This document shows, one piece after another, positions 40,326 to 63,009 of a DNA stretch of 64,000 nucleotides; the stretch's first letter is position 1; every line of letters begins with the position of its first letter. This DNA is from Pseudonocardia xinjiangensis (GTDB lineage Bacteria > Actinomycetota > Actinomycetes > Mycobacteriales > Pseudonocardiaceae): NCBI RefSeq assembly GCF_012911925.1, contig NZ_JAAXKY010000012.1, positions 1 to 64,000 on the forward strand, given 5' to 3'. A model generated the notes under the pieces. It saw nothing but the letters and a program-made list of their open reading frames with translations. It did not search any database and had not been told where the DNA came from. Both the position numbers and the translations under genes were made by a program.

Positions 40326-40367
40326 GGTCGTCCTTCCGTCACGTGCGGGAAGCATCAGCGCTCTCGC

Positions 40368-40421: not shown

Positions 40422-40467
40422 GGCCGAGCGGACCGACGGACGGGGGGAACGGGCGAACGGCGAGCCG

Positions 40468-42828: not shown

Positions 42829-42901
42829 TGCACGTCCTCGCTGCGCTCGGCCGGCAGTTCGTCCGGCACTGTGTCCATGATTCGCTCGCAAGCTCGCTCA
42901 T
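42818..42901 (-). CDS. Mini-ORF A, 27 codons, overlapping the GH65 start
   Basis: Begins MSELASESWTQCRTN and ends inside the GH65 gene in another frame. Its ATG overlaps the stop of mini-ORF B (ATGA). Encoded by one copy of a 70-base tandem repeat. May serve only to carry ribosomes from the mutase gene to GH65; translation is not proven. Confidence 0.35.
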   Translation of the reverse strand: MSELASESWTQCRTNCRPSAARTCNES

Positions 42902-42979
42902 CGCTCGCCCTCGCTGCGCTCGGCCGGCGCTTCGCGCAGGCGCTGTGTCACTGATTCGCTCGCAAGCTCGCTCATCGCT
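42836..42979. repeat. Tandem duplication of about 70 bases between mutase and GH65 genes
   Basis: Copies at 42836-42905 and 42909-42979 share CCTCGCTGCGCTCGGCCGGC at one end and ATTCGCTCGCAAGCTCGCTC at the other, with a diverged centre. On the minus strand each copy contains an ATG in ATGAGCGAGCTTGCGAGCGA. Sequences like this are familiar as dispersed repeats near start codons in actinobacteria (general knowledge, not verified here). Confidence 0.75.
42898..42975 (-). CDS. Mini-ORF B, 25 codons, coupled to the mutase gene
   Basis: Begins MSELASESVTQRLRE. Its ATG overlaps the stop of the mutase gene (ATGA) and its own stop overlaps the ATG of mini-ORF A in the same way. Encoded by the second copy of the tandem repeat. 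Function unknown. Confidence 0.35.
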   Translation of the reverse strand: MSELASESVTQRLREAPAERSEGER

Positions 42980-43718: not shown

Positions 43719-43776
43719 TTCTCCACGGTACCGAAGTCCATGATCACCTTCGGCGGTACACGGGTCACGCCCTCGC

Positions 43777-45390: not shown

Positions 45391-45473
45391 CGAACGCCGC
45401 GGGCGCCGCTGACGTGGCCGTTCCGGGCCCCGCGCACCGGCGTGGCTGCCCGGCGAGAGACGATCGGGGCATC

Positions 45474-47999: not shown

Positions 48000-48015
48000 G
48001 CAGCTGGGTCGCCCG

Positions 48016-48037
48016 TCGTGGCGCTCCGGCGCCACGA
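48016..48037 (+). terminator. Hairpin terminator after the DUF3516 helicase
   Basis: Nine-base perfect arms TCGTGGCGC and GCGCCACGA closed by TCCG, a stable UNCG-class tetraloop in RNA. 16 bases after the helicase stop; no T-tract. Confidence 0.65.
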
Positions 48038-48051
48038 GGGTCAACCGATCA

Positions 48052-48080
48052 TTGCCGCTGTGCTGGCGTCATTGTATCAT
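48052..48080 (+). promoter_or_regulatory. Housekeeping-type promoter, probably leaderless
   Basis: TTGCCG, a 17-base spacer and TATCAT, good matches to the SigA consensus. The ATG at 48088 follows seven bases later, so the mRNA would start at or next to the start codon. The sequence also contains the direct repeat TCATTG at 48069 and 48077, a possible operator. Confidence 0.5.
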
Positions 48081-48087
48081 TGACAGT

Positions 48088-48468
48088 ATGAAGTACGAGG
48101 AAGCTCGCCTCTGGCTCGAACGGGCCGAACCCAGCGTCACGAGGGCCGCCCGCTCCCTCACCGAGGAGCTCGAGACCCTGAAACAGCGCAGTGCCGACGG
48201 ACCTCTCACCCGCGACGCGGCAGCCGCCTGGTACGCGATCGTGCACGAGATGCACCGGGTGGCCGACCGGTACGAGCGCGATCTCATCCGCAAGCTCCGC
48301 CAGGACGGTCTGACCTGGGCCCAGGTGGCCGAAGCCGTGCAGGCGCAGCTCGGCAGCCGGCAGGCCGCGCAGGCCAAGTGGAAGCGGCTGGTCGACCCCG
48401 GCAGGCGCATCACCACCGGCAACATGCAGCGCGGCGGGCGTCGCAAGCAGAGCGACCCGCAGGCCTGA
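48088..48468 (+). CDS. Small protein of unknown function with HTH-like segment
   Basis: 126 residues, family not recognised. Mostly helical and charged (KYEEARLWLERAEPSVTRAA, MHRVADRYERDLIRKLRQDG). The segment GLTWAQVAEAVQAQLGSRQA resembles a helix-turn-helix, and the tail GRRITTGNMQRGGRRKQSD is strongly basic, so DNA binding is plausible. Preceded by a clear SigA-type promoter in unusually AT-rich DNA, giving a leaderless start. An in-frame extension to 48052 exists but lies within the promoter. Confidence 0.65.
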   Translation: MKYEEARLWLERAEPSVTRAARSLTEELETLKQRSADGPLTRDAAAAWYAIVHEMHRVADRYERDLIRKLRQDGLTWAQVAEAVQAQLGSRQAAQAKWKRLVDPGRRITTGNMQRGGRRKQSDPQA

Positions 48469-48519
48469 GCGTCGGCGCCCGATGGCCGGCTCCCCTCCCC
48501 CGGCGCGGCGGGGACGTCG

Positions 48520-49275
48520 TCAGAGCCGGCGGAGCCCGGCGAGCACGCGCTCCATCAGCGCAAGATCCGGGCCGGCCACGCCGACCGTGCGGTGCACCGC
48601 CACAGCGCCGTTCGCCACCAGGTCGCCCAGGATCACCTTGGCCACGCCGAGCGGGATGCCGAGCAGCGCCGCCACCTCGGCGACGGAACGAGGCTCCTGG
48701 CAGAGCGAGATGACGGCCTCGTGCTCGGCCGCGGCGGGCCCGCTGGTGGCCATGGGCACGGCCGAGACCAGCGTCTCGATGGACAGTTCGTACTGGGACC
48801 GTGTGCGACCGCGCGTCAGGACGTAGGGTCGGACGAACGACGTGGGGCCCTCGACCGCCGCTCCTGACTCCGCCCCGTAGCCGGACGCGAGGTAGTCCCC
48901 GCCCGACTGGTAGGGGTACGCGGATGCGGGGTCAGCGCCTGCCGGGTCAGAACCGGCCGATGGACCGTTGATCGGTCCCTCCTCGAGGTCAGGGGGGTCA
49001 GTTTGGGCGCTCCGGCTGTGATCGCGGGGGGCTCCCCCGAACCGCGCCCCGGTGAGCCCCACGGGCGAGGAACGATACACGACGAATCCGTCATCCGGTG
49101 CGTGGTCGGGCTTTCCCTCCGCCTCGGCCTCGGGAACGGCCGCGAGCGCCTCGGTGTTCAACTCGGAGGTCGGTTGCCCACCGGGACCGCGCCGCTTCGA
49201 CTTCCGCCGCCGGGAGCCACCGCCGAACCGCGCTCCGGTGCGCCCGACCGTGGGCTCCGCATCGTCGGGGTCCAC
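48520..49275 (-). CDS. DUF742 protein, not in a conservon
   Basis: 251 residues. The C-terminal 115 residues are a DUF742 domain (FVRPYVLTRGRTRSQYELSI, AVISLCQEPRSVAEVAALLG, IPLGVAKVILGDLVANG), a winged-helix-like module normally encoded with a sensor kinase, a roadblock protein and a small GTPase. None of these is adjacent. The N-terminal 130 residues are low complexity and contain TGARFGG twice (about residues 13 and 75). GTG start with AAGGAGG eight bases upstream. Confidence 0.88.
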   Translation of the reverse strand: MDPDDAEPTVGRTGARFGGGSRRRKSKRRGPGGQPTSELNTEALAAVPEAEAEGKPDHAPDDGFVVYRSSPVGLTGARFGGAPRDHSRSAQTDPPDLEEGPINGPSAGSDPAGADPASAYPYQSGGDYLASGYGAESGAAVEGPTSFVRPYVLTRGRTRSQYELSIETLVSAVPMATSGPAAAEHEAVISLCQEPRSVAEVAALLGIPLGVAKVILGDLVANGAVAVHRTVGVAGPDLALMERVLAGLRRL

Positions 49276-49673
49276 CTGCAGGGCCTCCTTCCGGACGTCC
49301 GTAGCCAGTGCCGGCGACCGGAAGCGCCGCCGGGCCCTCGCGCGCCAGCACCAGACCCTGGCGACTCTGCGTTACGAGTACGTTACCCAACCGTTGCGCC
49401 GCCATCACGATTGGTCCGTTTTGCTCCGCTTGGGTGCGCCGTCCGGTCCATCGTCCGGCCGCCGATCGCGCCAGACTGCCGAGCCGTACGGGGGCAGCTG
49501 ACGACACGTCCGGGCCGCGGCGGCGCGCGCCGCCCGCTCCGCGGGCAGGCGGTCTGCCATGCTGCGCCGGTGGCGGCTGTGACACGGGCGCCGGGACGGC
49601 GCCGCAACCGCGCCACCCCGGCCATAACGGGGACGGCGGCGACCGGGACATCAGCAACCGGGCCGGCAGCGAC
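49276..49673. other. Intergenic region between the DUF742 and NUDIX genes
   Basis: About 400 bases between divergent genes. A segment of lower GC around 49370-49430 (TTACGAGTACGTTACCCAAC) probably holds promoters. No convincing coding frame, hairpin or known regulatory element was seen. Confidence 0.5.
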
Positions 49674-50162
49674 ATGACCGTGCTGAGCGCCGGGCTGCTC
49701 CTGTTCCGGCCGGGTGCCGCCGGTGAGGTCGAGGTACTGCTCGGACACATGGGCGGGCCGTACTGGGCCCGCAAGGACGACGCCGCATGGTCGGTCCCGA
49801 AGGGCGAGCACGACCCCGGCGAGGACGCGCAGGCAGCGGCCGAGCGCGAGTTCACCGAGGAGCTCGGTTCCCCGCCTCCGCCCGGCCCGGTGCTGGAGCT
49901 GGGCACCGTCCGGCAACGGACCGGGAAGCTGATCACCGTCTTCGCCCGGGAGGGCGACTTCGACGCCGACCACATCACGCCCGGCGTCTTCGAGCTCGAA
50001 TGGCCGCCACGGTCGGGCACCGTGCGGGAGTTCCCGGAGATCGACCGCGCGGCGTGGTTCGACACCGGCACGGCACGGCGCAAGCTCGTGACGGCCCAGG
50101 CGGAGTTCGTCGACCGGCTGCTCGGTGCGCTCTCCCGCGCCCCGGGTACGGCACCGTCGTGA
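49674..50162 (+). CDS. NUDIX hydrolase
   Basis: 162 residues. The Nudix box is complete: GEHDPGEDAQAAAEREFTEE followed by LGS, with the catalytic glutamates in REFTEEL. The N terminus VLSAGLLLFRPGAAGEVEVL and PYWARKDDAAWSVPKGEH are typical of the group that hydrolyses nucleoside diphosphate-linked substrates. Substrate unknown. The stop overlaps the GTG of the next gene by four bases. Confidence 0.92.
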   Translation: MTVLSAGLLLFRPGAAGEVEVLLGHMGGPYWARKDDAAWSVPKGEHDPGEDAQAAAEREFTEELGSPPPPGPVLELGTVRQRTGKLITVFAREGDFDADHITPGVFELEWPPRSGTVREFPEIDRAAWFDTGTARRKLVTAQAEFVDRLLGALSRAPGTAPS

Positions 50163-51115
50163 GCTCGAGCTGGACCGGCCTCGCCCGCGGAGCGGTCGCC
50201 GGCGCCGCCGGCACGACAGCGCGGGGCACGACCACGTACCTCGGTGGGGCCGTGCGCGGGCGGGCGGCCGGGCCGGAGACGCTCCGCAACCCCTGGGAGC
50301 GGACCGGCAGGCTCTCCGCGCCGGGTCCGCTGGCCGCCACCGCCACGGGGGTGGCGATCGGCAGCGCGGCGGGCGTGCTGCGCGCTGCCGGGCTGCGACT
50401 GCCGACCGTGATCGGAGGCCCCCTGCTGGGGCTGGCGGCGATGGCGGCCGCCGGCGGGCCGCTCACCGCATGGCGCATCAGCGACCCCCGCACCTGGAGC
50501 ACTACCGACTGGGTCGCCGACGTCGTCCCGCACCTCGTCTACGGGGTCGCCACGCACGCCACCCTCGTCGCCGTCTCCCGCGTGGCCGAGAGCCGTGAGC
50601 CGGTACCCCCCGGCAGCCCGGCGACGCTCCTGCGGGCCGCCGCGCTGGGCGCGGCCACCGGGTCCCGCAGCACCGCAGGGGTCACCGCGATCGCCCTCAC
50701 CTCCGGCCGCGACGACCCCGGTGCCGTCGCGGCGCGGCTGGGCAGCCGCGCCGGCACGGTGATCTCCGCGCTGGCCGCCGCAGGCGAGCTCGTGGCCGAC
50801 AAGCTGCCGGCCACCCCGAGCCGGCTCGCTCTGCCGGGACTGCTGCCCCGGGCCGTGCTGGGTGCCACCTCTGCGGCGGCGATGGCCCGCCGCAACCAGT
50901 ACGACACGACACTGCCCGCGCTGGTCGGCCTGGCCTCCGCCGGCGCCGCCGCCGCGCTGGGGGTGCGCCTGCGCGCCGCCGCGGCGCGCCGTTTCGGTTC
51001 GGACAAGCCCGGGGCGTTCGCCGAGGACGCGATCGCCACACTGCTCGGCTGGCTCGGTGCCCGCCGCGCCGGGCGCCGGGCTGCGCTGATCACCGCCGAA
51101 CCGCTGGCCCGCTGA
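50159..51115 (+). CDS. Ala/Gly-rich membrane protein with DUF4126-like part
   Basis: 318 residues, several hydrophobic segments rich in Ala and Gly (LAATATGVAIGSAAGVLRAA, VIGGPLLGLAAMAAAGG, LVGLASAGAAAALGVRLRAA). The segment AAAGELVADKLPATPSRLAL resembles DUF4126 membrane proteins. ARGTTTYLGGAVRGRAAG and NPWERTG near the N terminus are seen in related uncharacterised actinobacterial proteins. Function unknown. Coupled to the NUDIX gene by overlap. Confidence 0.75.
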   Translation: MSSSWTGLARGAVAGAAGTTARGTTTYLGGAVRGRAAGPETLRNPWERTGRLSAPGPLAATATGVAIGSAAGVLRAAGLRLPTVIGGPLLGLAAMAAAGGPLTAWRISDPRTWSTTDWVADVVPHLVYGVATHATLVAVSRVAESREPVPPGSPATLLRAAALGAATGSRSTAGVTAIALTSGRDDPGAVAARLGSRAGTVISALAAAGELVADKLPATPSRLALPGLLPRAVLGATSAAAMARRNQYDTTLPALVGLASAGAAAALGVRLRAAAARRFGSDKPGAFAEDAIATLLGWLGARRAGRRAALITAEPLAR

Positions 51116-51964
51116 CCCGCCCCGCCGCCACCCGGCCGGCGGCATGCCTCGATGCGGTTCCACTGACGCGGCGTGTTCACAGTTGCGACCGGCGACCCGA
51201 ATTGCCTAAAGCCGATCTTTTACTTTGCACTTTGTGAATCTTTACCGGCAACCGTATGAACGGCCACCCAGCCTACCCTTGTCCACCAATCGCCGCCTAC
51301 TCTCCGCCAACCAGCGGCACGGCAAATGGTGGTCGACCGCCGGACCGCTCGACGGGGGATCATGAAATCCGCCACGCTGAAATGACAACCTTGCACGTCG
51401 GTGAAGCAAGCGTACGATGAGAAGGCGTCATCAGGGCGGCCACCGAGGTTCTGTCCTACACTGGCGATGCGCCCTCCGCTCCGGGTTTAAGCCGAATAGA
51501 CCGGGCCGGATGTCAACTCGGGAAGATCACGACGCCGTTCGTCGGCGGGGAGCAATACAGGTTTCGATTGATCATGATGTCAATCTGGACATTTGTGATT
51601 GCGTGCCGAACGCCGGACGAGACGGGGCAGGCGGCGCGTGATCATCCTGCCTAGCTGCGGCGACAGCCGTCGACGCGGTCTCGTTTGAGCGGTTTGCGCC
51701 CGGTACGAACCGGACGCCCAGACGAAGGGGATGGTCTGCGGTCGCCACCGGTGATCGATGACGAGCACACCCATCCGGGAGAGAAAATGCACGAAACGAT
51801 CTCGGTCGCCGGCGGGGGCCGGCAACGAGATCATCGACACACTCGATTCTTTGCGCGCCTGCCGAGCTTCCGGCCGCGGGCGCTACGGGTGATGTTGCAA
51901 GCAGTGTGAAACGACCATACGTGAGCGCGGAGATCCGATCGAGAACCTGCGCGAGGGGCCAGTG
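51116..51964. other. Lower-GC non-coding region before the five-gene operon
   Basis: About 850 bases without a credible gene; short open frames have no homology that I recognise. GC is clearly lower than in its surroundings near 51190-51260 and 51480-51600. It contains a candidate promoter at 51232-51260, an operator-like inverted repeat GATTGA-N8-TCAATC at 51566-51585, and a hairpin with GATCTCG arms at 51798-51832. It may be an integration scar, a long regulated leader or an unannotated RNA. Confidence 0.55.
51232..51260 (+). promoter_or_regulatory. Candidate SigA-type promoter upstream of the five-gene operon
   Basis: TTGTGA, a 17-base spacer and TATGAA. If used for the operon it would give a leader of about 700 bases. 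Low confidence because the region is AT-richer and chance matches are more likely. Confidence 0.3.
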
Positions 51965-52981
51965 ATGCAACAGTTTGTGGATGCCAAGTGGAGCTATGTC
52001 ACCCGCGGGGTGATTGATCGCGGAACGGTCACGCTGGGGAGTCTTGACCGGGAACCGCGGTTGGGTGATCTCGTCGGAGCCAGGGTCGTGAGCGTGGGGG
52101 CCCACGACCATCTGGAGGACACGCACGGCCGGCAGGTCCGGCTGTATCCGGGGGACGTCGTCGCGGGTGCGTTCGGTAATCGGTACGCCACCGACTACTA
52201 CGAGGGGTACCTGCCGACGGGGACCGTGGCGCACATGTTGACCGCGGGAGGCGTGGTCGGGCAGGTGGCCTCGGCGCACGCGCGGCGGGCGGAGCCCACC
52301 GTGCTGGAGGTGCTGGGGTTGCTGGCCGACCCGGCCGGCCGGCCGTTGTCGCTGGACGGATACGCGATGCCGGCGCCGGCGCCGGGCCGGCCCGAGTTGG
52401 GCACCTACGTGGTGGTCGGCTCGTCGATGGGGGCGGGCAAGACCACGACGGCATCGGCGCTGGTGCGCGGATGGTCGAGCGCCGGGTTACGCGTCGGGGC
52501 GGGCAAGGTCACCGGGTCCGGGAGCGGGAAGGACCGGTGGATGTACCAGGACGCGGGGGCGTCCGAGATCGTGGACTTCCTGGACTTCGGGATGCCCTCG
52601 ACGTTCGGCTACCCGCCGCAGCGGTTGCACGCCACCATGGTCGGGATCCGCGACGCGCTGGTCGAGCGCGGCGCGTCGGTGGTGGTGCTTGAGATCGCCG
52701 ACGGCCTGCTGCAGGAGGAGACCCGGGGACTGGCCGCCGGTCTGGCGGGATTCGCCGACGGGGTCGTGCTCGCGGTGGCCGATGCGCTCAGTGCCGTGGC
52801 CGGCGTCGGGATCATGGCGGATCTGGGCACGCCGGTGCGGGCGGTGAGCGGGCTGTTGACCGCGAGCCCGCTGGCGTCCCGGGAAGCCGAGGCGGCGACC
52901 GGGCTTCCGGTGCTGTCGCCCGCCGAGCTGATCGCCGGTGGTGCGCTCGAACTGCTGAGCGGCGTGGCGGTTCCCGCGTGA
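51965..52981 (+). CDS. P-loop NTPase, possibly DUF1611-like
   Basis: 338 residues. An N-terminal beta-rich part (LGDLVGARVVSVGAHDHLED, RLYPGDVVAGAFGNRYATDY) precedes a P-loop domain with Walker A GSSMGAGKTTTASALVRGW (Lys159). KVTGSGSGKDRWMYQDAGAS and EIVDFLDFGMPSTFGYPPQR follow, then VVVLEIADGLLQEET as likely Walker B region. The order recalls DUF1611/MobB-type nucleotide-binding proteins, but family assignment is not certain. It may hydrolyse ATP or GTP for a ligase or transport step. GTG at 51962 is an alternative start. First gene of the operon; ATGA-type overlap with the next. Confidence 0.7.
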   Translation: MQQFVDAKWSYVTRGVIDRGTVTLGSLDREPRLGDLVGARVVSVGAHDHLEDTHGRQVRLYPGDVVAGAFGNRYATDYYEGYLPTGTVAHMLTAGGVVGQVASAHARRAEPTVLEVLGLLADPAGRPLSLDGYAMPAPAPGRPELGTYVVVGSSMGAGKTTTASALVRGWSSAGLRVGAGKVTGSGSGKDRWMYQDAGASEIVDFLDFGMPSTFGYPPQRLHATMVGIRDALVERGASVVVLEIADGLLQEETRGLAAGLAGFADGVVLAVADALSAVAGVGIMADLGTPVRAVSGLLTASPLASREAEAATGLPVLSPAELIAGGALELLSGVAVPA

Positions 52982-54138
52982 CCCGCGCCACTGTCTACCT
53001 CCCCGACCCGCCCGGCTGGTCAACCGGGCCGGGCCGGCTCGGGGAGGTCGAACTGGACGTCCTCGAGGTCGGGCCGGCGCACGTGGTACTGCCCGAGGTG
53101 ACGGTCCGCGACGAGCGGGGCGGGGCACTGTTCACCGGCGAGGGGCTGGTCTTCGACCCCTCCGCCGGCGGTGGTCCCGTTGCCGGCGCGGCGGCCGACC
53201 GGGCAGCACGGGCGTTCGGGGTGGTCAACGCGGCGTTCCACGCCCAGCGGGCGCTGCGCTACGTCAGCGGGCTGCTGGGGCATCCCCTGCCGCGGCTACT
53301 GGTCCGCATCGGGATCCACGAGCAGACGCGCCGATGGCGCGGCGGGCACTACCGGCTGCCCGGGCAGGGGCTGGGAGCCGACCCGGACGCGGCCAGCCCG
53401 GACGGCGAGGTGCATCTGAGCGGTGGCGCCGGGTTCGTCGTCACCCCCGGCACCGCGCCGTACTTCTGCGCGCCGGCACACAACGCGGCCATCATCTGTC
53501 ACGAGGTCGGCCACCACGTGTGCCGCCACACCGCGGACTTCCGGCTCAACCGGCTGCGGCCGCCAGGGCAGCAGACGAACAAGAAGACCGCACTGGACGA
53601 AGGCACCTCCGATGTGATCACGGCGATGCTGCTGGGCACCCCCGACATCTACGGCTGGCACCGCCACGCCGTGCCGGAGACCGAGCAACGGCGCCGCAAG
53701 CTCGATCCCCGCTGGACGATGGCCCACTTCCAGGGTGGCCCGCACAGCGATCCCCACGCCGACGGCACCGTCTGGGCGTCCGCGTGCTGGAGCGCACGCA
53801 GGCGCGTCATCGACGCAGGCGCCGACCCCGCACGCTTCGACACCTTGCTGCTCCGCGGGCTGGAACTGGCCGGACGGCACAATCCCGCGGGCTTCATCGG
53901 CGATGCCCTCCGCGAACGGCGGCACTTCTCCCGGCTGATGGCCGCGATGGCCGAAGCCGACCCCGCACTCGCCCCCGACGTGCTGGCCGCCATGGCCGGG
54001 CACGGGATCCACCTCGGTATCAGCAACAACGACCTCTCCCTGGCCGCCCGAGCGCGCCTGAGCCGACAGGAGCCACCAAGCACCTCGCCGACGCCCCGGA
54101 GTCCGGCGATCGCCTACTCGACCTCTCCTTCTCGATGA
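52978..54138 (+). CDS. HExxH zinc metalloprotease-like protein
   Basis: 386 residues. The zinc site is IICHEVGHHVCRH (His175, Glu176, His179), and a third ligand is likely Glu208 in ALDEGTSDVITAMLLG, 29 residues on, as in gluzincins of the thermolysin/fungalysin type. The N-terminal 100 residues have no recognised domain. No signal peptide is visible, so it should act in the cytoplasm, unlike secreted relatives. It starts inside the P-loop gene (GTGA overlap). In this context it may process a peptide precursor; that is inference. Confidence 0.78.
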   Translation: MTRATVYLPDPPGWSTGPGRLGEVELDVLEVGPAHVVLPEVTVRDERGGALFTGEGLVFDPSAGGGPVAGAAADRAARAFGVVNAAFHAQRALRYVSGLLGHPLPRLLVRIGIHEQTRRWRGGHYRLPGQGLGADPDAASPDGEVHLSGGAGFVVTPGTAPYFCAPAHNAAIICHEVGHHVCRHTADFRLNRLRPPGQQTNKKTALDEGTSDVITAMLLGTPDIYGWHRHAVPETEQRRRKLDPRWTMAHFQGGPHSDPHADGTVWASACWSARRRVIDAGADPARFDTLLLRGLELAGRHNPAGFIGDALRERRHFSRLMAAMAEADPALAPDVLAAMAGHGIHLGISNNDLSLAARARLSRQEPPSTSPTPRSPAIAYSTSPSR

Positions 54139-54237
54139 GACCAGCCCGTCGGCACAGCAGGCGGGAATCGAAACGAATGTGAGCCGATCCGGCAGATGAC
54201 CGTGGCTGCCGGACTCGAGGGTTCGGAGGTATCGCAG

Positions 54238-55197
54238 ATGACGACGACCGCATCGTTCACCAGCATCGTGCGGCTGGAGACGGACGGGGCACGAGCGTGG
54301 TGGCCGACGGAGAAGGACGCCGTCAGGGCCGCTCTCGCCGACCACTACGGAGCTGATGTCCCCGGCGAGGCGCTGGCTCCTCCGCACGATCCCGTCGCCC
54401 TACGGGAGCGACTACGGGAGGTCGCGCCCCGACTGACGGCACTCACCGACCGCATCCGCTCGGCGTTCGACGACGACGAGGCCTGTGCGGTGCTGCTGGA
54501 GGAGGTCGGCCTGCGCGACCTGGGGATCGACGACAAACGCAAGGCCGTCTTCGCACTGGCCGTGCTGCTCGGCGACCCGACCGCGAACATACCGTTCGAC
54601 CACGTCCTGTGGGACGTCCAGAACCGCGGAGACGAGTCGTCGGGCCATACGAGCTTCTCGGAGAACGACCTCAAGGCCGGCTACCACACGGACAACGGGG
54701 CCCTGCCCATTCCGGAGCGCTTCTTCTTCCTGTACGCCGTGCGCGCCGCCCAGTGCGGCGGCGGGGTGTCCTTGCTCCGCGACGGGCGCGTCGTCAGAAA
54801 CCAGCTCGAGGAAACCCCGGAAGGTCGCGATGCGGTGCGCCTACTAACCGACACGCCGTTGCCCAGGCGCATTCCGGAAGCGTTCAAGAAGTACGCAAGC
54901 ATTTCTTCGGATGGCTACCTCTACGCGCCGGTGCTCGCCGAGAAACCCATGTGGCGCTGGCGGAAGAACGGGATTCGGAAGGGTATCAAAGCCCATCCCG
55001 AATACCAGAGGCCGGAGGTGTTCCAGGCGGTGGACACGGTGACCAGGCACCTCGAGGAAGGTCCCGGGGAGATCCAGCAGGTCATTCCCACCGACGGGAT
55101 GATGATCTTCGACAACCACGTCGCGCTGCACGGGCGCACCGCGTTCACCGATCCGGAACGCCATCTCCTGCGCCTGCGCTTCCACGAGGCGACCTGA
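54238..55197 (+). CDS. TauD/clavaminate synthase-like Fe(II)/2-oxoglutarate dioxygenase
   Basis: 319 residues. The iron triad is His150-x-Asp152 in DLKAGYHTDNGALPIPERFF and His298 in NHVALHGRTAF; Arg312 in RHLLRLRF, 14 residues later, fits the 2-oxoglutarate anchor. The fold order resembles clavaminate synthase and arginine/asparagine hydroxylases of peptide antibiotic pathways, though those use His-x-Glu. Probable role: hydroxylation or desaturation of an amino acid or small peptide. The ATG is preferred because GGAGG lies eight bases upstream. 99 bases after the protease gene. Confidence 0.87.
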   Translation: MTTTASFTSIVRLETDGARAWWPTEKDAVRAALADHYGADVPGEALAPPHDPVALRERLREVAPRLTALTDRIRSAFDDDEACAVLLEEVGLRDLGIDDKRKAVFALAVLLGDPTANIPFDHVLWDVQNRGDESSGHTSFSENDLKAGYHTDNGALPIPERFFFLYAVRAAQCGGGVSLLRDGRVVRNQLEETPEGRDAVRLLTDTPLPRRIPEAFKKYASISSDGYLYAPVLAEKPMWRWRKNGIRKGIKAHPEYQRPEVFQAVDTVTRHLEEGPGEIQQVIPTDGMMIFDNHVALHGRTAFTDPERHLLRLRFHEAT

Positions 55198-55198
55198 G

Positions 55199-55272
55199 CC
55201 CAGACCCCGCAGGCCACGCCCCAGCCGGCCCAGACCCCGCCAGCTCAGACCCCATCCGGTCCAGACCGATCA
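55199..55272. repeat. Degenerate short repeats after the dioxygenase gene
   Basis: CCCAGACCCCGC-like units recur about every 15-30 bases (CAGACCCCGCAGG, CAGACCCCGCCAG, CAGACCCCATCCGG, CAGACCGATCAG). Low-complexity, pyrimidine-rich; no hairpin. Origin unknown. Confidence 0.45.
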
Positions 55273-55365
55273 GCCGGGCCACAACCGACCGCACGTCCCG
55301 ACTCCCAGCCGCGCCGATAGCGCGTCCACAGGGAGGTCGGCGCATTGCAAGATTGGAAGAGTCGT

Positions 55366-55431
55366 ATGAACAGTTCCGTACGGGCCGACGTGCTCGCGAT
55401 ATCGTCTGTCCCGGTGGCGGGCACGCCATGA
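55366..55431 (+). CDS. Candidate 21-residue peptide ORF coupled to the DUF6875-like gene
   Basis: ATG at 55366 with GGAAGAG four bases upstream; 21 residues beginning MNSSVRADVLAIS and ending SVPVAGTP. Its TGA overlaps the ATG of the next gene (ATGA), the arrangement of coupled translation. It could be a precursor peptide for the surrounding modification-type enzymes, a regulatory leader, or chance. No known precursor family is recognised. Confidence 0.35.
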   Translation: MNSSVRADVLAISSVPVAGTP

Positions 55432-56057
55432 CGGACGAGACGATTTCCGACGAGCACCACCGGCAAGTAGACACCTGGCTGCGGGAGTACGTGTCCGTCG
55501 GCGACCGGCGAGTCGGCCGGTCCGGACCGGTGTGCCCGTTCATCCCGCGCACGCTCGCTCAGCACGCGCTGGAGAGCATCATGCGACACGACATCCACGG
55601 ATCCAGTGAGTCGGAACTGGCCGAGCAGCTCCGGGCGGAGATCATCGAGTTCGGCAAGGCCGGTCGCCCGTCGCAGAGCAGTGGGGTGGTGCTCGACAGC
55701 CGGCTGATCGTCATGCCCTGCATGGGCCCCGACGGCTGGAAGCGCCTCGATGCGGTGTACGACAACACCCTGAAGGACTTCGCCGTGGAGTCGGGCCTGA
55801 TGATCGGGCAGTTCCATCCCCACTGCGACGAGAGAGCAGTGCGCAACCCGGACTTCCGCGTCTCCGTCGCCCCGGTCGCCATGCTCGCCATCCGGCACAT
55901 GGCGCCGCACGACATCCTCTTCCTGCATCATTCAGCGAAGTGGTTCAAGGAATACAACGCACGCTTCCGGTCGCACTTCCAGCGCGGCCGGATCCGCGAC
56001 TCGCTCCTCCTCTCGCTGTACTACAGAGGATGCGAACGTCATGGTCTGCCGGCGTAG
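55428..56057 (+). CDS. DUF6875-like protein
   Basis: 209 residues. Features consistent with the DUF6875 group are GRSGPVCPFIPRTLAQHAL near the N terminus, SSGVVLDSRLIVMPCMGPDG and GQFHPHCDERAVRNPDFRVS, ending in basic helices. No catalytic motif is obvious; CPF, PHC and several His residues could bind a metal or haem. Function unknown. It lies between the dioxygenase and the ATP-grasp ligase and overlaps a 21-codon ORF. GC content is lower than in neighbouring operons. Confidence 0.65.
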   Translation: MTDETISDEHHRQVDTWLREYVSVGDRRVGRSGPVCPFIPRTLAQHALESIMRHDIHGSSESELAEQLRAEIIEFGKAGRPSQSSGVVLDSRLIVMPCMGPDGWKRLDAVYDNTLKDFAVESGLMIGQFHPHCDERAVRNPDFRVSVAPVAMLAIRHMAPHDILFLHHSAKWFKEYNARFRSHFQRGRIRDSLLLSLYYRGCERHGLPA

Positions 56058-56072
56058 TCGGGAGCGCTGACC

Positions 56073-57596
56073 GTGACCTCGCCAACAGGCGATCTCCGTA
56101 CCGCCGCCCCCCTCGCCGCGGCAGAAGCTCGTGGCAGCGCAGGCAGCGAGCTTCTCGACCTCCGGGTCCAGGACACGTGGGATGCACTTCCCGCCGAGTT
56201 CCGCGGCGAGTTCCTCACCCGCCGGATGACGACGCCGACCGGATGGGGGTCCTACCCGCGCCAGGAGTCCGACGGCAGGCGCTGGGAACCACTCCGGCCG
56301 GTCATCATCGGGGAGGGGGCATACCGGGGGCTCGAGTCGCTCGCGGCCCGGCTGTTGCACCTGGCCGTGGACGCGTGCCGGCGCCGGGCCTCGACACTGG
56401 GCGAGCTGCGCCAGGTACTCCGCTTCCCCCATGAGCTCCCGCTGATGGACCAGGACCGCCCGCTGGTGGCGGCGGAGCTCACCCGGTACGCCCGTCCCGA
56501 CATCCTGATCGAGAACGGGCGGCCCCGTCTCCTCGAGTTCAACAACAGCACCCGGCTCGGTGGCTCCATGGTGACGCCCCGCCTCGCGGACGCCTACGCG
56601 CGGCTGTGCCCGGCGAGCGGTCTCCACCCGCCGCCCTCCACCGTGCCCACGCGTTCCGCGGCGCTGCTGCGCACCCTCCGGGCCCAGATGGCGCCCGACA
56701 ACGACAGAACCGGCCGGGTGCTCATGCCGGTGTACCGGGCGGTCGACAACGCCGGGGTGGTCCAGCGCTACGGGACGGCCAAGCCGGCCATCCTGGCCGA
56801 CGCCCGGCGAGCGGGAATCGAGGTGGTCGAGGCCGATCTCGCCGACCTCCGCCTCGACGGCGCCGACCGGCTGCTCGCCGGCGATGCGCCGGTCGACCTC
56901 GTGCTGCTGCACTGGGGCGGGAACCGCATCGTGGAGGACGGCGGCGGCCTCGCCGTCCTGCGTGCCGCCGACCGGGCCCGCACCGTCGCGCTGTTCCCGC
57001 GCACGGAGTCGGCTCTCATCTCCTCGAAGGCGGTGCTGGCCTGGCTGCACGAGGACTGCGACGCCGGCGTGCTCGCCCCGGCCGACCGCGCGCTGGTGCG
57101 CACCCACGTTCCGTGGACCGCATGCCTCGGCCTGGACGACGATGCGGCCGTGCCCGCGGCGCTGCTGCGCCGGATCACCGCTGATCGGGACCGGCTGGTG
57201 GCGAAGCCCGCCGTCGGCAAGTCCGGGAACAACGTGTTCTTCGGAAGCCAGAGCTCGGAGCAGGACTGGTCCGCCGTCATCGAGGCCGCTCGCGAGGCGC
57301 CGGTGGTCCTGCAGCACCGCATCGGATCGGACCGGATCACGATGCCGTTCCGCGACCAGGACTCCGGGGAGCAGGTCACCGGGCGGGTGCCGTTCGTGCT
57401 CGGCCCGTACATGATCGACGGTGCCGCGGCCAGCATCGCGGTCCGTCACATGGGTCCGGGCGTTCCGGCCGGGGACGTGGTGATCAGTGCGATCCGGGGC
57501 GCGTGCCAGAGCACGGCTCTGCTTGCCCCGGAGCCACCCGGACCCGGCGGCTGGTTCGCCGAGGCCGGCGGGATCGACGAGCTCGACGCCGGCTAG
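56073..57596 (+). CDS. ATP-grasp-like ligase, circularly permuted type
   Basis: 507 residues. Segments resembling permuted ATP-grasp enzymes (glutathionylspermidine synthase relatives): ENGRPRLLEFNNSTRLGGSM (metal Glu/Asn) at about 150-170, and RLVAKPAVGKSGNNVFFG followed by APVVLQHRI at about 372-412. They would form an amide bond from a carboxylate and an amine via an acyl phosphate. Substrates unknown. GTG start 15 bases after the DUF6875-like gene. Last gene of the operon, closed by a hairpin. With the dioxygenase it suggests synthesis of a small modified amino acid or peptide. Confidence 0.7.
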   Translation: MTSPTGDLRTAAPLAAAEARGSAGSELLDLRVQDTWDALPAEFRGEFLTRRMTTPTGWGSYPRQESDGRRWEPLRPVIIGEGAYRGLESLAARLLHLAVDACRRRASTLGELRQVLRFPHELPLMDQDRPLVAAELTRYARPDILIENGRPRLLEFNNSTRLGGSMVTPRLADAYARLCPASGLHPPPSTVPTRSAALLRTLRAQMAPDNDRTGRVLMPVYRAVDNAGVVQRYGTAKPAILADARRAGIEVVEADLADLRLDGADRLLAGDAPVDLVLLHWGGNRIVEDGGGLAVLRAADRARTVALFPRTESALISSKAVLAWLHEDCDAGVLAPADRALVRTHVPWTACLGLDDDAAVPAALLRRITADRDRLVAKPAVGKSGNNVFFGSQSSEQDWSAVIEAAREAPVVLQHRIGSDRITMPFRDQDSGEQVTGRVPFVLGPYMIDGAAASIAVRHMGPGVPAGDVVISAIRGACQSTALLAPEPPGPGGWFAEAGGIDELDAG

Positions 57597-57609
57597 ACCC
57601 GGGGAGGCG

Positions 57610-57638
57610 GAGTCGGCCGGCGGCGAGCCGGCCGGCTC
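57610..57638. terminator. Bidirectional hairpin terminator
   Basis: Arms GAGTCGGCCGGC and GCCGGCCGGCTC pair with one G-T wobble around a five-base loop, between the convergent ATP-grasp and molybdenum-hydroxylase operons. It reaches the stop codon of the latter. Confidence 0.7.
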
Positions 57639-59769
57639 AGCGTCTCCGTACCGTCGACACGCGGCGGCGCACCGCGTCGAGGAGCGCGCCGATCGCGAGC
57701 CGCAGCGGGGACGGGCCGCGGCGCGCGGGTGCCTCCCGTCCGGCAGCGGCGGCGTCGACGGCCATGGCGAACTGCTCGAACAACCGCCTGCTGACGTCCC
57801 CGGCGAGCGCGCGCCCGAACTGCGCGATGCGGCCCGACAGGTAGAGGTCGGCGTCCGCGCGCAGGACGCTGCCGCCGCCCGGCGCCGGCTCGGCGCGCAG
57901 CCGGATGTCGGCCTGCGTCGCGCTGCCGCCCGCATCGGAACCCTGGCCGATCATCCGGAGCCGGTGTCCATCCGCGTCGCGCTCGACGATCTGGGCGAGC
58001 CCGGCGAACGAGAGCTTCACCGGCCCGAGCGCCACGCCGGCGGTGCCGCGGTACCGGTCGCCGCCCAGTGCCTCGGTGAGCGCGGCGCCGGGAAGGCAGG
58101 CGACCATGCGCTCGACGTCGTCGAGCACCGCCCACACGGCGTCGACGGGAGCGCCGAGCGCGCTGGTCACCTCGACCGTCGCGGACGGGGATCCGGCCGG
58201 GACGGTGAGATCGGCCCCGCCGTCGAGGCTGCTGTCGACGCCGCGCGTGCTCTCCCGAGCGCCGGCACCCGACTGCTCGGTGTGCCCCTGGCCGGACCCT
58301 CCGCTGCGCCCCATCAGCACGCGGGGCTCGCAGTTCAGCGGCGCGGGCACACCGCAGGGATGGGCGGCGGCGACGTCCGCCACGGCGGCCAGGATGCCGC
58401 GGTAGCCGGTGCAGCGGCACAGCACTCCCGACATCTGCTCGGGCAGGTCCTCACGCGTGACGGCGCCGGGCCCGGCCAGCAGGTCGTAGGAGCTCATGAG
58501 CATCCCCGGGGTGCAGAAGCCGCACTGGAGTGCGTGGTGCGCGGAGAACGCCTGCTGCAGCGGGTGCTGCTCCTCGGGCCTGCCGAGCCCTTCGACGGTG
58601 ACGATCTCGGTTCCCTCGCACTGCACGGCGAACAGCAGGCACGCCCGCGCCGCTGAGCCGTCGACGAGGACGGTGCACATCCCGCACACCCCGTGCTCGC
58701 AGCCCAGATGGGTGCCGGTGAGGCCGACGTGCTCACGCAGCGCGTCGGCGAGGTGCATCCGCGGCGGCACGCGCACGGTGGCCTCGCTCCCGTTCACGCG
58801 GAACGTCACGGCCACCCGCTCCTGGGCAGGCACCCGCGCCCGGGCCCGCTCGGGCGGCCGCGCCGGGTTCCGGTTCGGCTCCCGGGTCGCCGGCTCCCGG
58901 CGGGGGGCGGCGTCGGCGGCGGTGCGGTGGGCACGGGCCAGCTCGCGGGCGGCCAGCACCGCCAGCAGCCGGCGGCGGTAGCCCGGGGAGCCGTGCGCGT
59001 CGCCCGCGGTGTCGACCATGTCGGCGGCGAGCCCGGCCGTCGCCTCGCGCAGGAGCCCCTCGGCCCCCTCGGTCGTCCGCACGAGGTCGGTGACGTCGCG
59101 GGTCACCGGCCGGTCGGACACCCCGAAGGCGGTGAGCCGGGCGGTGAGCACCGCGCCGTCCGGACCACGGCGGACCCGCGTGACCACCCCGGCCAGCGCG
59201 AAGTCGCCGTGCCGGCGCGCGATCTCGGCGAAACCGTGGCCCTCCCCCGCCCCCGCCACCGGGAACCGGGCCGCGACCAGCACCTCGTCGGGCGCCACCG
59301 TGGTGGTCATCGCGCCGGCGAAGAACTCTTCGGCCGCGACGGTGCGGCGGCCGCGGGGGCCGGCGACCTCCAGCTCGGCGTCGAGGCAGCAGGCCACCGC
59401 GGGGAGCTCCGCGGCCGGGTCGGCGTGGGCGAGGCTGCCGCACACGGTGCCGCGGCTGCGCAGCTCCCGGTGCCCGACGAAGGGCAGCGCCATCCCGAGC
59501 AGCGGCACGGCCCGGGCCTGGTCGGCGTGCTCCACGGCGCGCTGGCGGACCACAGCCCCCACGTGGAGGGCGCCGCCGTCGACGTCGAGCCGGTCGAGCC
59601 CGCGGGCCGCGGTGATGTCGACGAGCGTCGCGGGCCGGCCCAGGCGCATCGCGAGCACCGGCACCAGCGACTGGCCGCCGGCGAGCACCTTGGCGTCGTC
59701 GCCCGCGAGCTCGGCGAGCACGTCGTCGAGACTCCCCGGGCGCACGTAGGCGAAGGGTGCCGGTTTCAT
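57637..59769 (-). CDS. Three-part molybdenum hydroxylase subunit: FAD (CoxM), 2Fe-2S (CoxS) and CoxG-like domains fused
   Basis: 710 residues in one frame. Residues about 1-285: FAD-binding subunit M (KVLAGGQSLVPVLAMRLGRP, GSLAHADPAAELPAVA). A Pro/Arg-rich linker, then about 325-485: 2Fe-2S subunit (LGCEHGVCGMCTVLVDG, QCGFCTPGMLMSS, VLCRCTGY). A second linker, then about 540-690: an SRPBCC/CoxG domain (PVDAVWAVLDDVERMVACLP, GDVSRRLFEQFAMAVDA). These are usually separate proteins. CoxG-type proteins anchor or help mature the enzyme. Together with the large subunit gene upstream it supplies the electron-transfer chain. Last gene of the operon. Confidence 0.9.
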   Translation of the reverse strand: MKPAPFAYVRPGSLDDVLAELAGDDAKVLAGGQSLVPVLAMRLGRPATLVDITAARGLDRLDVDGGALHVGAVVRQRAVEHADQARAVPLLGMALPFVGHRELRSRGTVCGSLAHADPAAELPAVACCLDAELEVAGPRGRRTVAAEEFFAGAMTTTVAPDEVLVAARFPVAGAGEGHGFAEIARRHGDFALAGVVTRVRRGPDGAVLTARLTAFGVSDRPVTRDVTDLVRTTEGAEGLLREATAGLAADMVDTAGDAHGSPGYRRRLLAVLAARELARAHRTAADAAPRREPATREPNRNPARPPERARARVPAQERVAVTFRVNGSEATVRVPPRMHLADALREHVGLTGTHLGCEHGVCGMCTVLVDGSAARACLLFAVQCEGTEIVTVEGLGRPEEQHPLQQAFSAHHALQCGFCTPGMLMSSYDLLAGPGAVTREDLPEQMSGVLCRCTGYRGILAAVADVAAAHPCGVPAPLNCEPRVLMGRSGGSGQGHTEQSGAGARESTRGVDSSLDGGADLTVPAGSPSATVEVTSALGAPVDAVWAVLDDVERMVACLPGAALTEALGGDRYRGTAGVALGPVKLSFAGLAQIVERDADGHRLRMIGQGSDAGGSATQADIRLRAEPAPGGGSVLRADADLYLSGRIAQFGRALAGDVSRRLFEQFAMAVDAAAAGREAPARRGPSPLRLAIGALLDAVRRRVSTVRRR

Positions 59770-59776
59770 GAGCGCC

Positions 59777-60556
59777 TCACCGTCCGGTGAACTCCGGCTT
59801 GCGCTTCTCGGTGAACGCGGCGACGCCCTCGGCGAAGTCGTGCGTGGCGCGCAGCATCGCGTAGGCCTTCCGCTCCAGCTCGATGCCGGTGTAGAGAGGC
59901 CCGTCGGCGCCCTTGTCGAGCACCTCCTTCGCCGTGCGCTGGGCCGCCGGTGAGAAGGCGGCCATCCGCGCCGCGAGCTCGTCGGCGGCCGCGTACAGCG
60001 CCTCCCGGTCGTCGTAGAGGCCGGCGACGATCCCCCAGTCCAGCGCCTGTGCGGCCTGGATCCGGGTGGCCGTCATGATGTGGAACTTCGCCCGCGACAG
60101 CCCGATCAGCCGGGCGAGCCGCTGGGTGCCGCCCGATCCCGGGATCATGCCGAGGTTCATCTCGGGCAGGGCGAACTGGCTGCGCGGGGTGGCGAGGCGG
60201 ATGTCGCAGGACAACGCCATCTCCAGCCCGACGCCGAAGCAGTACCCGTCGACCGCGGCGATCACGGGTTTCGGGCTCCGCGCCGCTGCGGTGACGTTGT
60301 GGCCGAGATCGGTGAAGTCGATCGGGTCCACCTCCATGAACCCCGCGATGTCACCGCCGGAGGTGAAGTGCTCACCGTCGGACCGCACCACGACCACCCG
60401 CACGTCCGGGTCGGCGTCGAGGACGGCGAACCGCTCCGCCACGAGCTGGCGCATCTCCCACGTGATCACGGTGTAGGGCCCGTTGGAGAGCGTCAGGTAC
60501 GCGACGCGCCCGTCGTGCCCGCGCTCCAGCAGGACCTCTCCGCCGGTCAACGCCAT
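59777..60556 (-). CDS. Enoyl-CoA hydratase/isomerase (crotonase family)
   Basis: 259 residues. Crotonase fold: oxyanion-hole residues in GEHFTSGGDIAGFMEVDP and AAVDGYCFGVGLEMALSCD, and FALPEMNLGMIPGSGGTQRL around the catalytic region. C-terminal FTEKRKPEFTGR is typical. It hydrates, isomerises or hydrolyses an acyl-CoA. It sits between the two molybdenum-hydroxylase genes, with a ten-base overlap upstream and seven bases downstream. It should therefore act on the same CoA-bound intermediate. Confidence 0.93.
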   Translation of the reverse strand: MALTGGEVLLERGHDGRVAYLTLSNGPYTVITWEMRQLVAERFAVLDADPDVRVVVVRSDGEHFTSGGDIAGFMEVDPIDFTDLGHNVTAAARSPKPVIAAVDGYCFGVGLEMALSCDIRLATPRSQFALPEMNLGMIPGSGGTQRLARLIGLSRAKFHIMTATRIQAAQALDWGIVAGLYDDREALYAAADELAARMAAFSPAAQRTAKEVLDKGADGPLYTGIELERKAYAMLRATHDFAEGVAAFTEKRKPEFTGR

Positions 60557-63009
60557 GGTGGGTTCTCCTTCTCGTTCTTCTCCAACAGCTGGTGCAGCAC
60601 CTCGCCGTGCAACGGCAGCCGGGTGATCCCGACGCCGGACGGCGCGAGCGCGTCGGCCACGGCGTTGGCGAACGCGACCGGGAAGCTCATCGAGGACCCC
60701 TCACCACACCCCTTCGCCCCGAGCGGGGTGAGAGGTGAGGGGCTGACAACGTGGTCGGTGCGCAGGTCGTAGCCGGTCTCGGCGCTGGTGGGGCAGAGGT
60801 AGTCGAGGAAGGTCGCCGACGTCGGCTGCCCGGATGGGGCGTAGGTGAACTCCTCGTACGCGGCGCCGCCGAGGGCGTGCACCAGCGCGCCGTGCACCTG
60901 GCCGTCGAGGAGCTGCTGGTTGAGCACGGTCCCGGCGTCGTGGACGGAGGAGACACGGTCGATCGCGATCTCCAGGGTGTCCGGGTCGATCCGCACGGCG
61001 ACGATCTCGGCGACGAACCCGTAGCAGAGCGAGGAGTTGATCCGGTCGTCCCGGGTGGCCGCGCTGGTCTCCCGGGGGGCGAACGCCGCCTCCTCGTAGA
61101 GCCGTGCGGAGGTGCCGGGCGGCAGCGACGCCGGGTCCCAGTGCACCACCCCCGCGGCGTGCCGGAACAGCACGCTCGGGCCGGAGGGGTGCGCGACGGT
61201 GCCGTCCACGAGACGCAGCTCGTCGGCGGGCACGTCGAGCATCACCGACGCCGCGGCGCGCAACGTCGCCGCGATCCGGTCGGCCGCCTGCACCACCGCG
61301 CTGGTGACGAGCGGCGCGAAGCGCGACGAGTAGCTCCCCGACGTCACCGTCCACGGCGTGGTGGCGGTGTCCATGTCGACGACCACGCGTACCTGCTCGA
61401 CGGGCAGCCCGAGCCGGTCGGCGGCCACCTGGCGCGCGACGGTGGCGTGGCCCTGCCCCTGGGGCACCGAGCCGAGCAGCACCGTGACGATCCCCTGCAC
61501 GTCCACGGAGATCCGCACGTGCTCGGTGGACCCGGACTTGTCCCGGCCCGGCCTGCGTTGCTCGGCGGGGGTGGCGAGCCCGACGTAGCCGATGTTCGTG
61601 CCGGAGGGATCGACGACGAGCCCGACGCCGATGCCGTAGTGCACCCCCTCGGCCCGGGCTGCGGCCTGCCGTTCCCGCAGTTCGCCGAGGTCGGCGCTGC
61701 GGACGGCGAGGTCGAGGGCGGCTGCGTAGTCACCGGAGTCGTAGCAGCCGCCGGTGGGCGTCTCGTACGGGAAGGCCTCGACGAGGTTGCGGCGCCGGAC
61801 CTCCACGACGTCGAGCCCGGTCGCGTCGGCCACGGCGTCCATCAGCCGTTCCAGGCCGAAGTACAGCTGCTGGCCGCCGAAGCCGCGGTTGAGCCCGGTC
61901 GGCATCGAGTTGGTGACCACCGCGCGCGCCCTGATCTCGACCGCCGCGATCCGGTACGGCCCGGTGATGTTGCCGTAGCAGCGGTAGAGCGTGGACGGCT
62001 CCGGCGGGCGCAGGTAGGCGCCCACGTTGTCGACCAGGTCGACCCGCAGCGCCGTCACCTCACCGGACGCGGTCACGGCCGCCGCGAAGCGCATCACGCG
62101 GTCCGCGCCCGACGAGCTGGCCAGCAGGTGCTCGACGCGGTCCTCGGTCCAGCGCACCGGCGTGCCCGAGTGCTTCGAGGCCAGCGCCATCAGCACCACG
62201 TAGGGGTAGATCCCGGCCTTGATGCCGAAGCTGCCCCCGATGTCGGCCGGGACGTGCAGCCGCACCGCCGACGTCGGGAGGCCCAGCGCGCCTGCCATCA
62301 CCGGGACCATGGTGAACGGCCCGTGGAAGTTGGCCCACGCCTCGACGCCGGGCCCGCTGTCGGTGCGCTGCCAGTTCGCGATGACGCTGTAGCACTCCAT
62401 CGGCACCGACGAGTAGCGCGGGAAGTCGTACTCGCCCTCCACCACGTGCCCGCCGTCGCGCTCGGCGGCGGCGAACGCGTCCTGCACCGGGCCGAACCGG
62501 AAGGTCCGGTCGGTCGCCACGTTCGAGCCCGCCTCCTCGTGCAGCAGCGGCGCGCCGGGCGCCAGCGCCGCGCGGGCACCGACCACCACGTCGAGCGGCT
62601 CGTAGTCCACCCGCACCAGCTCGGCGGCGTCCTCTGCGGTGAACCGGTCCGTGGCGACGACGACGGCGATCGGCTCCCCGACGAAGCGCACCTTGTCGAC
62701 CCCGGTCGGGTAGTAGGGCATCGCGGTGCCGGTGGACAGGGGGAACGGCCGCAGCGCGGCGCGCACCTCGTCGGGCCCGACCACCGCCGCGACGCCGGGG
62801 TAGGACCGCGCCCGGGACAGATCGACGGATCGCAGCCGGGCGTGCGGCTGCGTCGAGCGCACCACCGCGGCCACGAGCGTGCCGGGCAGGGGGTCCATGT
62901 CGTCGAGGAACCGGCCCTGCCCCGCGACCAGCGGACCGTCCTCGATGCGCGCCGGTGCCCACCGGACCGCCGGCTCCGGGACCCCTTCTTCGATCACTGC
63001 CTCAGACAT
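60547..63009 (-). CDS. Xanthine dehydrogenase-family molybdenum-binding subunit
   Basis: 820 residues. Large subunit binding molybdopterin: ARIEDGPLVAGQGRFLDDMD at the N terminus, ADIGGSFGIKAGIYPYV, SMPTGLNRGFGGQQLYFGLE, GSVPQGQGHATVARQVAADR and the catalytic Glu in GAKGCGEGSSMSFPVAFANA. The CO dehydrogenase loop (AYRCSFR) is absent; NRGFGGQQ stands there, as in aromatic or heterocycle hydroxylases. With the CoA ligase and crotonase it probably hydroxylates or reduces an aromatic or unsaturated acyl-CoA. Overlaps the ligase gene by eight bases. Confidence 0.93.
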   Translation of the reverse strand: MSEAVIEEGVPEPAVRWAPARIEDGPLVAGQGRFLDDMDPLPGTLVAAVVRSTQPHARLRSVDLSRARSYPGVAAVVGPDEVRAALRPFPLSTGTAMPYYPTGVDKVRFVGEPIAVVVATDRFTAEDAAELVRVDYEPLDVVVGARAALAPGAPLLHEEAGSNVATDRTFRFGPVQDAFAAAERDGGHVVEGEYDFPRYSSVPMECYSVIANWQRTDSGPGVEAWANFHGPFTMVPVMAGALGLPTSAVRLHVPADIGGSFGIKAGIYPYVVLMALASKHSGTPVRWTEDRVEHLLASSSGADRVMRFAAAVTASGEVTALRVDLVDNVGAYLRPPEPSTLYRCYGNITGPYRIAAVEIRARAVVTNSMPTGLNRGFGGQQLYFGLERLMDAVADATGLDVVEVRRRNLVEAFPYETPTGGCYDSGDYAAALDLAVRSADLGELRERQAAARAEGVHYGIGVGLVVDPSGTNIGYVGLATPAEQRRPGRDKSGSTEHVRISVDVQGIVTVLLGSVPQGQGHATVARQVAADRLGLPVEQVRVVVDMDTATTPWTVTSGSYSSRFAPLVTSAVVQAADRIAATLRAAASVMLDVPADELRLVDGTVAHPSGPSVLFRHAAGVVHWDPASLPPGTSARLYEEAAFAPRETSAATRDDRINSSLCYGFVAEIVAVRIDPDTLEIAIDRVSSVHDAGTVLNQQLLDGQVHGALVHALGGAAYEEFTYAPSGQPTSATFLDYLCPTSAETGYDLRTDHVVSPSPLTPLGAKGCGEGSSMSFPVAFANAVADALAPSGVGITRLPLHGEVLHQLLEKNEKENPPWR

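Follow-up and report, generated by a model that had tools for sequence, protein, structure and literature searches.

A composite five-gene unit of Pseudonocardia xinjiangensis carries a candidate amide pathway where an NTPase-peptidase pair usually adjoins an exporter

We analyzed a 64,000-nucleotide stretch of Pseudonocardia xinjiangensis DNA (contig NZ_JAAXKY010000012.1, positions 1 to 64,000; hereafter the window). It holds a unit of about 51.35–57.6 kb with five open reading frames (ORFs), all on the forward strand, at 51962/51965–57596. The ORF list thus bears out the five co-directional genes of the initial annotation, which had taken them for one small biosynthetic system. The unit is a composite of genes 1–2 and genes 3–5, and not a single conserved five-gene pathway. 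Genes 1 and 2, for a P-loop NTPase and a predicted cytosolic metallopeptidase, are an old pair with a recurring partner of its own, an ATP-binding cassette (ABC) exporter. In one Pseudonocardia clade that place is taken by genes 3–5, for an Fe(II)/2-oxoglutarate (Fe/2OG) oxygenase, a DUF6875 protein and an ATP-grasp-like ligase. We tentatively propose that genes 3–5 make a small amide or dipeptide from an oxidized aromatic amino acid, independently of a nonribosomal peptide synthetase (NRPS), with genes 1–2 making or cleaving amides. Each enzyme falls within or near a known family; their combination and the module of genes 1–2 and exporter were not found described in the open-licence PMC literature.

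A gene 2 profile was run over a genome collection of 84,980 species and returned 19 loci, numbered here with the prefix L. The scan used two peptide patterns as seeds and so misses divergent relatives. In 18 of the 19, gene 1 is the immediate upstream neighbor of gene 2 (in L098 it is cut by the contig start); the exception, L099, retains only the 3′ end of gene 1. In 14 of these loci the gene after gene 2 encodes an ABC exporter, and L026, L027 and L133 bring the number to 17. Nine of the exporter loci come from eight Streptomyces (L100–L102, L104–L106, L110, L111, L113), three from two Streptantibioticus species (L108, L109, L112) and two from Pseudonocardia (L103, L026); the rest are L027, L133 and L114, an actinobacterial metagenome-assembled genome (MAG). 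Genes around the relatives were called with a crude GC-frame script that misses some, such as the exporter of L026. The exporter of L100 combines the domains ABC_membrane and ABC_tran, and its best NCBIfam row, MsbA, fell below the cut-off. The P. xinjiangensis genome itself holds a second copy of genes 1–2 (L026:5579–9461), 79 and 67% identical to those of the window and still followed by the ABC exporter, after which comes a methyltransferase gene. A single five-gene pathway conserved across genera was rejected, since genes 1–2 pair with the exporter in most loci. Gene 2 is rare, found in 3 of 120 genomes of the family including its own, one of them by a weak 50-residue match. A search for it among 72,556 plasmid records came back empty, and we rejected a plasmid-borne peptidase on that count.

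Relatives of gene 1 also occur without gene 2, at 12 loci (L134–L145). An ABC exporter adjoins the gene 1 relative in five of them (L134–L138), a neighbor from an M20-peptidase cluster occurs in five, and one from a flavin-reductase cluster in five; the Pfam identities of these clusters were read from two members and one member, respectively. An exporter together with a peptidase or a deacylase as recurring neighbors suggests that amino acids undergo amide or N-acyl chemistry and that the result is exported. Genes 1–2 and the exporter probably form a route by which a small amide- or peptide-like molecule is built, trimmed and then exported. The open-licence PMC literature yielded no description of this module, which is portable and spread over actinobacteria, and whose peptidase has the fold of a secreted enzyme with no export signal. 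In L134–L137 the gene 1 relative stands immediately before the ABC exporter, and a gene of an HTTM cluster comes next in L135–L137 (assigned by Pfam in L137 only). The gene 1 branch of L140 (165–3092) and L145 (6871–9116) lies behind an M20 carboxypeptidase-like gene, and a flavin reductase-like gene is present in several loci of that branch.

Five gene 2 loci lack the exporter (L096, L097, L098, L099 and L107), as does the window. The contig of L107 stops inside gene 2; the other four, L096–L099, all hold genes 3–5 or pieces of them after gene 2. In L098, from P. bannensis, the five-gene order is kept with identities of 92, 82, 77, 67 and 72% for genes 1 to 5; genes 3, 4 and 5 are open, and the contig end leaves the last 145 matched residues of gene 1. 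L097, a MAG labelled Modestobacter, has an internally deleted gene 3 and retains genes 4 and 5. L096 shows pieces of genes 3 and 5 up to its contig end, and L099 (P. alaniniphila) short pieces of genes 3, 4 and 5. With the window counted, genes 3–5 are intact in two of the five testable loci of this kind, which we call type B, and broken or lost in three; gene 2 is full length throughout.

In a gene 1 tree rooted on L133, the type-B loci (the window, L096, L097, L098 and L107) form one clade (support 0.994) that is sister to the exporter-bearing copy from the same genome as the window, L026 (0.997), and nested among exporter-bearing loci. The gene 2 tree places the type-B group together with L099 beside L026 (0.993 with L026; no value was printed for the group itself). 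L104, in which gene 2 lies in two frames near its 3′ end, was left out of this alignment and tree. With one type-B clade that sits inside the exporter-bearing loci, the trees indicate a single replacement of the exporter, within Pseudonocardia. The flanks of the unit in the window (40001–51000 and 57651–64000) gave no tblastx match at 1e-20 in L096–L099, L103, L107 or L026, where L096 offers 2.4 kb upstream and almost nothing downstream, L098 nothing upstream and L107 nothing downstream. Since no flanks are shared where they can be compared, the unit seems to move as a block. Nine of the ten flanking proteins scanned in L097–L099 and L107 have Pfam families, with no visible link to the unit.

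The start codon of gene 1 is ATG 51965 or GTG 51962, and its 3′ end shares 4 nt with gene 2, which begins at GTG 52978; gene 5 starts (GTG 56073) 15 nt past gene 4. The overlaps and short gaps described at first hold for these two junctions, but not for the others: the likeliest start of gene 3 is ATG 54238, preceded by GGAGG here and in P. bannensis, which leaves 99 nt after the end of gene 2 at 54138, and 233 nt separate gene 3 from the start of gene 4 at ATG 55431.

Gene 4 (55431–56057) was correctly recognized from the outset as a DUF6875 protein. It matches PF21780 with 148.8 bits against a gathering threshold of 24.5 (E = 2.2e-43) and is the sole match to that family in the genome. An alignment of 19 DUF6875 sequences, the window's included and L038 and L041 left out, has an invariant Cys-Pro pair and 17 further invariant residues. 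Searches of the PDB gave no match with the gene 4 sequence alone and nothing meaningful with a gene 4 profile. In one paper, which cites a bioRxiv paper on "cytochrome P422", DUF6875 is reported as a family of heme proteins that oxidize tryptophan (PMC13307353). According to the same paper, deletion of zigI, the DUF6875 gene of the zigralone cluster, led to a demethoxylated product, as did deletion of the methyltransferase gene zigH; from this product its authors expect ZigI to hydroxylate C-7 (PMC13307353). Gene 4 is, like ZigI, a clear PF21780 member, and we predict that it encodes a heme aromatic amino acid oxygenase of the P422 type. The zig cluster pairs DUF6875 with prenylation and terpene cyclization, whereas the window pairs it with Fe/2OG and ATP-grasp-like genes. 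DUF6875 is common, occurring in 29 of 120 genomes of the family (its own included). Of its 31 other places, 18 were compared, and none of these had a relative of gene 3 or gene 5 at E 1e-3 within about 9 kb.

Gene 3 (54238–55197) encodes an Fe(II)/2OG oxygenase of the TauD type, in agreement with its first description as a dioxygenase (68.5 bits against a cut-off of 27, E = 1.1e-18; HTD...H...R kept). Residues H150, D152, H298, R308 and R312 are invariant across five sequences, and a gene 3 profile matches 7n7v (4.9e-12) and DfmD (5.7e-7). Among 347 other genomes from the order (cut-off 1e-20) and 373 others from the class (1e-15), no relative was found; these samples miss members, because P. 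bannensis carries gene 3. Relatives also occur in 11 plasmid records. One in Azospirillum (L093:9911–14237) has an NRPS gene immediately in front of it and two ABC transporter genes behind it; the farther of these two is named a cyclic peptide exporter.

Gene 5 (56073–57596) is the least secure assignment. The proposed ATP-grasp identity drew weak profile matches: its best Pfam match, GSP_synth, reached 13.7 bits of the 29.3 required (E = 0.036), below the curated ATP-grasp score. Four of seven relatives match CP_ATPgrasp_2 up to E 0.1 (best 1.2e-5), and one of the relatives, L089, scored 24.6 against a cut-off of 32. A PDB search with the sequence alone gave chance rows only, such as antibody chains. 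A profile of the seven relatives has as its best PDB match Cp1B (9cjn; E = 0.048, not significant alone), the only ligase among its nine rows. At 1e-3, 46 of the 348 genomes sampled from the order carry a relative, a count that includes its own genome; at 1e-40 or better, genus g60 accounts for 28 genomes and g62 for one. The P. xinjiangensis genome has a gene 5 paralogue (60% identity, L079) with none of the other four genes nearby; its neighbors look sugar-transport-like by eye. In the 14 loci compared, gene 5 relatives lie apart from the partner genes of the window, bar a 58-residue match to gene 3 in L090 (E = 0.001). Thirteen loci around gene 5 relatives include 11 with a PhyH-type gene, 11 with an HPPD-like gene and 10 with both, counts that rest on crude gene calls and on families named on L089 only. 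In L089 (9013–16477, genus g60) the relative is part of a gene block that also turns up in related genomes and comprises ketosynthase, HPPD-like, PhyH, DUF3050, two E1 dehydrogenase subunits and the ATP-grasp-like gene; it looks like a pathway of its own. Homologues of the unit are thus scattered in part: those of DUF6875 and gene 5 lie elsewhere, but all five genes stand together again in a second species, and remnants of the set persist at further loci.

The NTPase assignment of gene 1 (51965–52981) was upheld by a P-loop match to MobB, itself under the cut-off (E = 3.7e-4). Its P-loop domain may share the fold of the DUF1611 protein 2obn, and structure matches leave most of the beta-rich N-terminal domain uncovered. 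We take TM0796 (2g0t) and DgcN also to be DUF1611 P-loop proteins. Gene 1 of the window differs from DUF1611 proteins in having no PF07755 match up to E 1, and two distant relatives, L140 (25.6) and L145 (26.7), pass the cut-off of 25. Gene 2 (52978–54138), first described as an HExxH metalloprotease, has the motifs HEVGH and DEGTSD, and its predicted fold matches M36 and M4 peptidases with both the catalytic fold and the HExxH...E ligands in place. Unlike M36 fungalysin and M4 thermolysin, it lacks a signal or propeptide region, and it has no significant sequence match to them; no Pfam family exceeded its cut-off (Peptidase_M36, 10.5 bits of 23.3 needed). PDB searches with profiles of genes 1 and 2 found nothing meaningful.

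All five genes are under purifying selection. The dN/dS ratios between type-B loci (Nei-Gojobori; synonymous estimates are rough in such GC-rich genes) are below 1 for every gene: 0.13 for gene 1 (window and L096), 0.17–0.21 for gene 2, 0.28 for gene 3 (window and L098, one pair), 0.19–0.26 for gene 4, and highest, 0.38–0.59, for gene 5 (0.38 with L097).

From the gene families, their linkage and order, the predicted folds, the exporter replacement, the recurrence of the unit, the catalytic residues and this constraint, we infer possible substrates, a product, an order of steps and a joint function for the two halves. The old core of genes 1–2, a DUF1611-like NTPase and a cytosolic metallopeptidase, would act with the ABC exporter, its neighbor in most loci, in building, trimming and exporting a small amide- or peptide-like compound. 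In one Pseudonocardia clade genes 3–5 have taken the place of the exporter. There, the heme protein of gene 4 may oxidize tryptophan or a related aromatic amino acid, and the gene 3 enzyme may hydroxylate an amino acid or acid partner. Gene 5 would activate a carboxylate as the acyl phosphate and join both partners by an amide bond, and genes 1–2 would act on the same product or a precursor through N-acyl or amide formation and hydrolysis. The idea of a small biosynthetic system, an oxygenase with an amide-forming ligase, thus persists as the best reading, and is strengthened because DUF6875 is now reported as a tryptophan-oxidizing heme family (PMC13307353). The first suggestion that the protease releases or matures the product stays speculative, as genes 1–2 pair with an exporter in 17 other loci. 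No pathway with this five-gene set is named in the open-licence PMC literature. A close parallel is the pathway to E-64, which its report describes as NRPS-independent, with the Fe/2OG epoxidase Cp1A, the ATP-grasp enzyme Cp1B and the amide bond synthetase Cp1D (PMC12568646). The shared logic would be that building blocks are oxidized and then joined via an acyl phosphate. The window, however, has no ANL-family amide bond synthetase among its five genes (Pfam and NCBIfam) and instead has the DUF6875 protein, the NTPase and the peptidase, and sequence similarity is not significant. A newly recognized heme family here adjoins a probable amide ligase in a tiny candidate pathway, the function of which is testable with three proteins.

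Several observations weigh against this proposal. Genes 3–5 decay and gene 2 stays intact, which implies that gene 2 is independent of them and the proposed product dispensable, and L099 has lost gene 1 too. The 233-nt gap separates genes 3 and 4, and DUF6875 stands elsewhere with neither gene 3 nor gene 5 nearby (none in 18 places). Gene 5 is the least constrained of the five genes, and its putative ATP-grasp identity falls under curated thresholds. The unit also has no exporter of its own; the ABC-exporter-like genes at 14.2–17.9 kb in the window are only 33% like the usual one. We consider it unlikely that genes 1–2 with the exporter are a new portable module (in which an NTPase of the DUF1611 type and a cytosolic peptidase with the fungalysin fold serve to build, trim and export a small amide- or peptide-like compound), converted in Pseudonocardia, by the swap of the exporter for the heme P422, Fe/2OG and ATP-grasp genes, into a new NRPS-independent class, the oxidized-tryptophan pseudodipeptides.

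The strongest rival holds that the two halves are unrelated neighbors, genes 1–2 being a self-contained module of amide or peptide turnover that has shed its exporter and genes 3–5 a hitchhiking tailoring pathway. Though doubtful, this is a serious contender and comes close behind our proposal, because genes 3–5 are readily lost while gene 2 stays. It would account for the 17 loci with genes 1–2 and exporter and no genes 3–5, for L099, where gene 2 persists with only the gene 1 end and pieces of genes 3–5, for the 99-nt gap between genes 2 and 3, and for the stronger constraint on genes 1–2 than on gene 5. Yet the five-gene order recurs in two species whose flanks are unshared where compared, which co-transfer or shared function fits better than chance adjacency, and gene 3 occupies the usual place of the exporter gene after gene 2.

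It is improbable that the unit is catabolic or detoxifying, with oxygenases that break down a derivative of an aromatic amino acid and a peptidase/NTPase pair that opens or blocks an amide. The M20-peptidase and flavin-reductase clusters, each next to 5 of the 12 gene 1 relatives that lack gene 2, are in keeping with it, as is the place of dgcN in a D-amino acid racemization pathway (PMC12363236). An ATP-grasp ligase is, however, unexpected in degradation, and the usual partner of genes 1–2 is exporter-like rather than importer-like. Least probable is that genes 3–5 make a peptidase inhibitor, with gene 2 as self-resistance or decoy target. Phosphoramidon, a Leu-Trp compound, inhibits thermolysin, and gene 2 is predicted to have a thermolysin-family fold; the protease inhibitor E-64 is made by Fe/2OG and ATP-grasp enzymes (PMC12568646). 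Against this stand the 17 loci where gene 2 lies beside the exporter with no genes 3–5, and the close pairing of gene 1 with gene 2 goes unexplained.

The five proteins have no PADLOC match up to E 0.1, so that a defense system was rejected, and nothing above NCBIfam cut-offs. The leader in front of gene 1 (51353–51961, forward strand; GC 0.62–0.66) lies in the lower-GC stretch of the first description: windows covering 51000–52249 have 62–66% GC, against 72–80% upstream and 73–76% just downstream. Low GC does not mark the leader alone, though, because genes 3–4 are almost as low (65–70% in windows within 54000–56249). As DNA, the leader is partly conserved in two members of its clade, sharing 66–75% identity with L107 and about 72% with parts of L096 (blastn). 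Its tblastx similarity is spread over several frames, with no conserved reading frame seen. Upstream of gene 1 in 19 loci (up to 1.2 kb each; 594 bases for L106), tblastx similarity likewise fell in several frames, chiefly between close pairs; no short ORF was common to all, and a ribosomal precursor peptide was rejected on this weak test, made by eye. A known RNA was rejected as well, an Rfam scan of 50900–57700 being empty up to E 0.5. The hairpin proposed to end the unit (57600–57655) has no T-run, sits between convergent genes (gene 5 and a minus-strand ORF ending at 57637) and was not listed by a terminator scan, but the structure itself is strong: 57590–57660 folds with −46.4 kcal/mol (z = −4.1), and none of 200 shuffles did as well.

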